Shown here: positions 11,977 to 12,361 of the stretch, piece by piece | Layout: each line of letters opens with the position of its first letter | Numbering within the stretch: the stretch's first letter is position 1 | Source: a virus | Virus record (IMG/VR): IMGVR_UViG_3300048769_000038 | Coordinates: 1-21,453 of that record | DNA length: 21,453 nucleotides | Strand: one strand, 5' to 3' | Made by a program: the position numbers and the translations under genes | The notes under the pieces: generated by a model | What the model was told of the DNA's origin: nothing | Seen by the model: the letters and a program-made list of their open reading frames with translations, nothing else | Database searches by the model: none

Positions 11977-12006
11977 TGGACGATGAGATGGAAGAAGCCG
12001 TACAAT
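11977..12006 (+). promoter_or_regulatory. Possible sigma70-like promoter reading into the CRISPR-like repeats
   Basis: TGGACG (11977-11982) and TACAAT (12001-12006) are 18 nt apart on the plus strand, with 4/6 and 5/6 match to consensus. The predicted start, around 12012-12014, falls at the first stem of repeat 1. The transcript would cover both repeats and the gene at 12110. It is the only plausible way for this antisense island to be expressed on its own. Confidence 0.4.
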
Positions 12007-12008
12007 AG

Positions 12009-12096
12009 AAGCTCCTCACATTCGTGGGGGTGTTTCTTGAGTAACGAATGGATTCCGAAAGGACTCCACAATTCCCCACGTTAGTGGGGGTGTCCT
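12009..12096 (+). CRISPR. Two type I-E-like repeats with one 32-nt spacer (mini-array or RNA anti-CRISPR candidate)
   Basis: Repeat 1 (12009-12036) and repeat 2 (12069-12096) are 28 nt each, 19/28 identical, and separated by exactly 32 nt (12037-12068). Each has the type I-E layout: a 6-bp stem with a 4-nt loop (CCTCAC-ATTC-GTGGGG; CCCCAC-GTTA-GTGGGG) followed by GGTGT. The single T-to-C change in the stem keeps pairing (T.G versus C-G), which suggests selection on the structure. E. coli repeats have the same form (CCCCGC-GCCA-GCGGGG). No cas gene is in the window. The identity between copies is lower than in an active host array, so this is a degenerate mini-array or a repeat-mimicking RNA. 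Two plain regulatory hairpins are the alternative. Confidence 0.5.
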
Positions 12097-12105
12097 CAAT
12101 TGAGG
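12094..12105. repeat. Perfect 12-bp palindrome before the plus-strand gene
   Basis: CCTCAATTGAGG reads the same on both strands. Its right half (TTGAGG) is also the likely Shine-Dalgarno of the gene at 12110, 4 nt from the ATG, and its left end is the end of repeat 2. It could be a repressor operator or an mRNA dimer site. Confidence 0.45.
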
Positions 12106-12109
12106 TTTT

Positions 12110-12361
12110 ATGGCAAAGATTCTTTCATTACTGTTCGTTTTATTCTGTTTCTGCTTTCCGGCATACAGCACGGGCCAACCGATAAAGTATTACCTATCAG
12201 ACATTGACTACCTGGTCGTAAGCGACAACCCCAATCGAGTTGAAGTCCACCACATCGAGGGCAGTCAATCTTACGTAACACGGCTCAAGTGCATCAGAGA
12301 AGACGAAGAAGGTCAGTACTATTACTTGATTGATGTTATAGGGACGTACGTGTCGAAATAA
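12110..12361 (+). CDS. Small secreted or periplasmic protein, antisense island (moron-like)
   Basis: 83 residues, on the opposite strand to all genes for several kilobases around. The N-terminus is a textbook signal peptide: MAKILSLLFVLFCFCFPAYS, with Lys, a Leu/Phe/Cys core and a small-residue cleavage site near residue 20. The mature part is ~63 residues, charged with several Tyr (YYLSDIDYLVVSDNPNRVEV, 'EEGQYYYLIDVIGTYVSK'). It is not a recognised family. The start is preceded by TTGAGG, and a promoter and CRISPR-like repeats lie just upstream. Its 3' end overlaps the tail of the convergent minus-strand gene by 40 nt. A prophage-expressed host-modifying protein is inferred. Confidence 0.55.
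   Translation: MAKILSLLFVLFCFCFPAYSTGQPIKYYLSDIDYLVVSDNPNRVEVHHIEGSQSYVTRLKCIREDEEGQYYYLIDVIGTYVSK

Follow-up and report, generated by a model that had tools for sequence, protein, structure and literature searches.

Two diverged hairpin repeats, placed exactly one type I-E CRISPR period apart, occupy an intergenic region of the window, a stretch of 21,453 bases that makes up a virus record. The same layout recurs in phages unrelated to this one and, in one Limosilactobacillus phage family, the whole unit is far better conserved than its surroundings. Judging from these sequences, we give an even chance to the proposal that the window locus encodes a two-repeat mimic RNA that would sequester Cas6e or Cascade and so lower type I-E interference; the element is accordingly filed as putatively Racr-like in action, not as a proven Racr.

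The RNA is predicted to be short, to be read from the + strand and to copy one repeat–spacer–repeat unit of a type I-E array. Host Cas6e would bind and cut both hairpins, yielding a product of about 60 nt that would consist of the handle GUGUUUCU, a self-folded pseudo-guide and hairpin 2. Such a product may fill Cas6e, Cas7e or the whole Cascade without a target, leaving less interference against the phage. We infer transcription of the locus, cutting by Cas6e and the block of Cascade from the anatomy described below.

Anatomy of the repeat pair

The portal, terminase and major head protein genes of the phage lie on the minus strand of the window, which contains no cas genes or leader. The repeat pair is intergenic, and the locus comprises the following features.

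11977–12006, + strand: promoter-like site TGGACG-18-TACAAT, a 9/12 consensus match that ends 7 nt before stem 1
12009–12036, + strand: repeat copy 1, AAGCTCCTCACATTCGTGGGGGTGTTTC, with the I-E-like hairpin CCTCAC-ATTC-GTGGGG
12030–12037, + strand: handle GTGTTTCT, 8 nt, after the stem of copy 1
12037–12068, + strand: 'spacer' interval, 32 nt
12049–12068, + strand: inverted repeat in the spacer, TGGATTCC-GAAA-GGACTCCA
12069–12096, + strand: repeat copy 2, CAATTCCCCACGTTAGTGGGGGTGTCCT, with the I-E-like hairpin CCCCAC-GTTA-GTGGGG
12094–12109, + strand: short hairpin CCTC-AATT-GAGG followed by TTTT, a weak terminator or the ribosome-binding region of the next ORF
12110–12361, + strand: 83-aa ORF whose start resembles a signal peptide, beginning 13 nt after copy 2

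A sequence-only reading of this DNA had described two 28-nt I-E-like repeats with an interval of exactly 32 nt and a period of 60 nt, and this arrangement was found as described. Each copy forms a 6-bp stem with a 4-nt loop and then GTG, the two copies are identical at 19 of 28 positions and their period fits that of type I-E (60–61 nt). The T-to-C difference between the stems, which had been said to keep pairing, exchanges a U–G for a C–G pair and does so on the + strand only. None of 300 dinucleotide shuffles of the window held two such hairpins at 59–62 nt; a chance pair is ruled out by this result together with the poor yield of the off-period control described below. In the window RNA, an alternative repeat-to-repeat pairing is, for some end points, 1–2 kcal/mol better than the two local hairpins.

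The likeness to type I-E goes beyond the hairpin form. With the stem held fixed, only 0.6% (copy 1) and 2.6% (copy 2) of random flanks match I-E array repeats as well as the actual loop and flanks do, bearing out the earlier description of a type I-E-like pair in a phage intergenic island; the best identity to the array repeats compared is 79% for copy 1 and 75% for copy 2. The handle GTGTTTCT is also that of the type I-E arrays of Klebsiella (PMC8847753), and it is present in the I-E arrays of the genomes from which two loci, L030 (Methylococcales) and L031 (Desulfovibrio), come; these loci carry cas1e and their genomes carry cas6e. With I-E repeats of the GTCTTCCCCAC-NNNN-GTGGGGGTGTTTC kind (Klebsiella; L030, L031, L086), the window shares the stem, the loop size, the period and, in copy 1, the handle, but it lacks the 5′ GTCT, shows stem variants and has two copies only, with no cas genes or leader. 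An Rfam element was ruled out, as no Rfam covariance model matched the window above its gathering score.

The promoter-like site agrees with the earlier prediction of a promoter on the plus strand, as a consensus match only, and 4.6% of base shuffles of the upstream 60 nt score equally. The statement that the pair lies opposite to all neighbouring genes was mistaken, since the 83-aa ORF follows on the + strand. Whether this ORF is part of the element is uncertain; a family search with it gave no usable match. The hairpin at 12094–12109 was not called in the terminator scan.

Occurrence in other phages

A search of IMG/VR with the exact single-hairpin pattern, with no spacing imposed, returned four contigs: that of the window's own phage, L004, L003 and L005. 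The first is a twin of the window phage, without a single difference across 16,128 bases, and L004 has one hairpin without a partner. L003, from a Limosilactobacillus prophage family, and L005, an unplaced phage, are unrelated to the window phage and carry their hairpins 61 and 60 nt apart, respectively. The two-repeat pattern, run over 84,980 species genomes, gave only three contigs, including a Limosilactobacillus alvi contig (L032) whose unit closely matches that of L003. Lactobacillus phage mv4, found by BLAST with a single I-E repeat, has a second hairpin exactly 60 nt away, and paired scans added further diverged-repeat pairs in L012 (60 nt) and L062 (63 nt). The sequence-only reading had envisaged that related phages might show hairpins of other spacing at this place; the spacing seen in other phages is 60–61 nt.

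In a gap-width control, 31 non-CRISPR widths yielded four stretches, compared with 26 for 13 CRISPR-like widths, many of the latter being real arrays. This poor yield indicates that the spacing is constrained, and because unrelated phages share the layout, a CRISPR-related RNA is likely. Two samples of host genomes, of 369 and 395, contained little besides ordinary arrays. Pairs on four GC-rich prophage contigs (L010, L021, L023 and L029) were left out because other repeats adjoin them; common to these contigs is a compact series of dissimilar I-E hairpins, of GCGGGG and GTGGGG types with two in tandem, closed by a strong terminator-like hairpin.

Conservation could be followed between L003 and L032, in which the 108 nt from hairpin 1 through the terminator, spacer included, are identical at 107 positions, against 77% identity in the remainder of the 901-nt alignment, a protein gene included (binomial P about 7e-11). 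The RNA of the Limosilactobacillus family is therefore under selection. The window copy has no independent conservation, its sole relative with the pair being the 100% identical twin. In the portal relatives of the window phage the pair is absent, though several of these contigs may stop short of the site; portal matches in Methylococcales genomes are only remote and named phages are ∼22% identical.

The L003 unit is preceded by a perfect sigma-70-like promoter, TTGACA-17-TATAAT (12/12), 10 nt before stem 1. Promoter-like sites occur at the same place in L005 (10/12) and in mv4, L062 and the window (9/12 each), while none stands out before stem 1 in L032 (8/12) or L012 (6/12). An intrinsic terminator directly follows copy 2 in L003, and terminators are also visible in L032 and L005. 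The 12 hairpins keep all 72 of their stem pairs on the + strand and 66 on the minus strand, the difference being due to six C-to-T changes that face a G; stem covariation amounts to one two-sided compensated change and is not significant. Both L003 (6682–7242) and L032 (3848–4393) have, beyond the lysin gene, a small HTH-domain gene that is divergent to the repeat-pair RNA.

Spacers and handles

Compared with 168 spacers of arrays and mini-arrays, those of the six diverged pairs are more strongly folded (Mann–Whitney p = 0.00075 in a post hoc comparison with n = 6). The window spacer has a folding energy of −8.1 kcal/mol and that of L005 contains a 10-bp inverted repeat, while the spacers of three phage mini-arrays (L063, L070 and L071) fold like shuffled sequence.

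The spacer search that the sequence-only reading had proposed was run on IMG/VR (exact, with every sixth position free), 50,697 phage records and 72,556 plasmids and gave no protospacer, and the rest of the window holds no second site above 19/32. The L003 and mv4 units had no other match in phages. As a positive control for targeting, the spacer of a further phage mini-array (L068) gave one weak match, in an unrelated Acinetobacter phage, and was thus uninformative. The absence of a protospacer favours a decoy, but most real spacers likewise have no match.

I-E repeats on Lactobacillaceae plasmids end in GTGATCC, while copy 1 of L003 and L032 runs on as GTGTTGC; here the hairpin is kept and the handle is altered, a state that resembles RacrIF1, which has no usable handle (PMC10651486). 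The window handle would be intact if the host uses the GTGTTTC type, and a real crRNA could then form. Occlusion of the handle by pairing looked promising in the window, L003 and mv4 but was dropped as a general rule: comparison with the array repeats of 26 loci gave p = 0.2, and the window transcript probably starts downstream of GAAGC, the segment with which the handle would pair.

Alternative explanations

The earlier preference for a decoy over an active array is favoured by the missing protospacer and the self-folding spacer, but the intact handle of copy 1 would allow a real crRNA, and the divergence between copies, on which it had leaned, is by itself a weak argument. The pair might instead be a working one-spacer mini-CRISPR array, by which host I-E Cascade would aim the 32-nt spacer at a competing phage or plasmid. 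We consider this unlikely, yet it stays alive because a real crRNA could be made: the period is right, the repeats are I-E-like and the intact GTGTTTCT of copy 1 with the intact hairpin of copy 2 would be enough for one. Phage mini-arrays with near-identical repeats do occur in the same scans (L063, L068, L070 and L071). Against an array, the search of IMG/VR, phages and plasmids left the window spacer without a protospacer, and this spacer, unlike those of arrays, forms an inverted repeat. In L003 and L032 the spacer is frozen instead of being turned over and the handle is unlike the Lactobacillaceae type. The two repeats are 64–86% identical in most members of the set, compared with 89–100% in the mini-arrays L063, L070 and L071.

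The divergence of the repeats would also suit a relic of a host array, acquired by recombination, in decay and now without function, and stray pairs do exist outside the main array in a Methylococcales genome (G001; L085) and in another genome (L084). This origin appears improbable to us, since no stem change, whether in the two window copies or in other phages, disrupts + strand pairing, a promoter-like site lies directly upstream in most members and the L003/L032 unit is far more conserved than its surroundings; for the window copy taken by itself, decay may still apply. Somewhat less credible again is a hairpin element unconnected with CRISPR, such as a two-hairpin leader of the 83-aa ORF or the gene ends of the other strand. 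The + strand ORF does start 13 nt after copy 2, and the L012 pair also stands shortly before an ATG. L003, L032 and L005, however, end in terminators with no directly following same-strand ORF (in L005 the portal gene comes further on), the period and flanks fit I-E repeats and no Rfam family matches; intrinsic terminators of the minus-strand genes were ruled out, as no T tract follows the reverse-complement hairpins.

It is very improbable that the RNA serves as a guide with which host Cascade represses a host or phage gene without cleavage, as in the CreR/scaRNA idea of crRNA-like regulatory RNAs. Mini-arrays with deviant repeats just upstream of cas1e in two I-E loci (L030 and L031) lend this some plausibility, but in the window the spacer has no second site above 19/32.

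Comparison with known systems

Solitary phage repeats that act as RNA anti-CRISPRs are established, two of them (RacrIE1 and RacrIE2) against type I-E (PMC10651486). The putative mimic RNA of the window shares with these units that it is an intergenic, CRISPR-repeat-like phage RNA with the hairpin kept, no cas genes and a position right behind a promoter (here by consensus); they have one repeat, whereas the window has two, set one CRISPR period apart around a structured interval. In the published search a repeat had to stand alone and reach at least 90% identity, and any that had a similar copy in the surrounding 100 bp was dropped (PMC10651486). The window copies lie 60 nt apart and are only 79% and 75% identical to array repeats, outside the solitary-unit definition of SRUFinder, which asks for one repeat of 90% identity or more and bars partial copies up to 100 bp away, and are therefore very probably absent from the published Racr catalogue.

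Viral mini-arrays are likewise established (PMC6858448; reviewed in PMC8616872), and those of archaeal viruses have leaders and spacers that match related viruses (PMC6858448). The window resembles them in that two repeats enclose a single spacer between the genes of a virus, but its spacer folds on itself and has no protospacer found, no host-like leader is seen and its repeats, identical at 19 of 28 positions, are far from the near-identity that marks a mini-array.

More tentatively, and on balance doubtfully, the pairs may belong to a recurrent class of Racr that forms a complete dummy crRNA unit, with two I-E hairpins at one period and a self-folding pseudo-spacer. Cas6e would cut it to a guide of the right length that fills the whole Cascade and pairs with no target; the class would have emerged separately in several lineages of phages and gone unnoticed, since paired repeats are thrown out in searches. 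If so, it would represent a second architecture of RNA anti-CRISPRs, absent from current catalogues by construction, and its mechanism would be unlike that of RacrIF1, with a stalled full-length Cascade holding an unusable guide in place of a partial Cas6–Cas7 filament. Phage mv4, the Limosilactobacillus prophages and the window phage make a compact set for testing, part of it in culturable hosts.

Other type I-E repeat units

Several further units were met in the course of the scans. The mini-arrays of L030 (Methylococcales; array strand 4309 and 4370) and L031 (Desulfovibrio; array strand 3501, 3562 and 3623) have two and three slightly deviant repeats, respectively, with a GTTC loop, and are located shortly before cas1e, separate from the main array; they are possibly regulatory crRNA-like units. 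The Methylococcales pair L085 (G001:C53:44157-44225, minus strand) is a lone I-E repeat pair with a period of 62, located after an nqrF-like gene and directly followed by a terminator-like hairpin. Lactobacillaceae plasmids carry, outside annotated genes, one exact or near-exact I-E repeat each (L055 and L058, 1501–1530; L057, 1301–1330) or, in L053 (1153–1238), two identical repeats 61 nt apart. Two Microviridae genomes of 4.7–5.0 kb, L078 (PQ006273) and L079 (KT264830), both have a solitary I-E repeat with the handle GTGTTTCT at 601–626, in an intergenic gap that precedes either the replication gene or VP3, and these repeats are candidate Racrs in tiny ssDNA phages.
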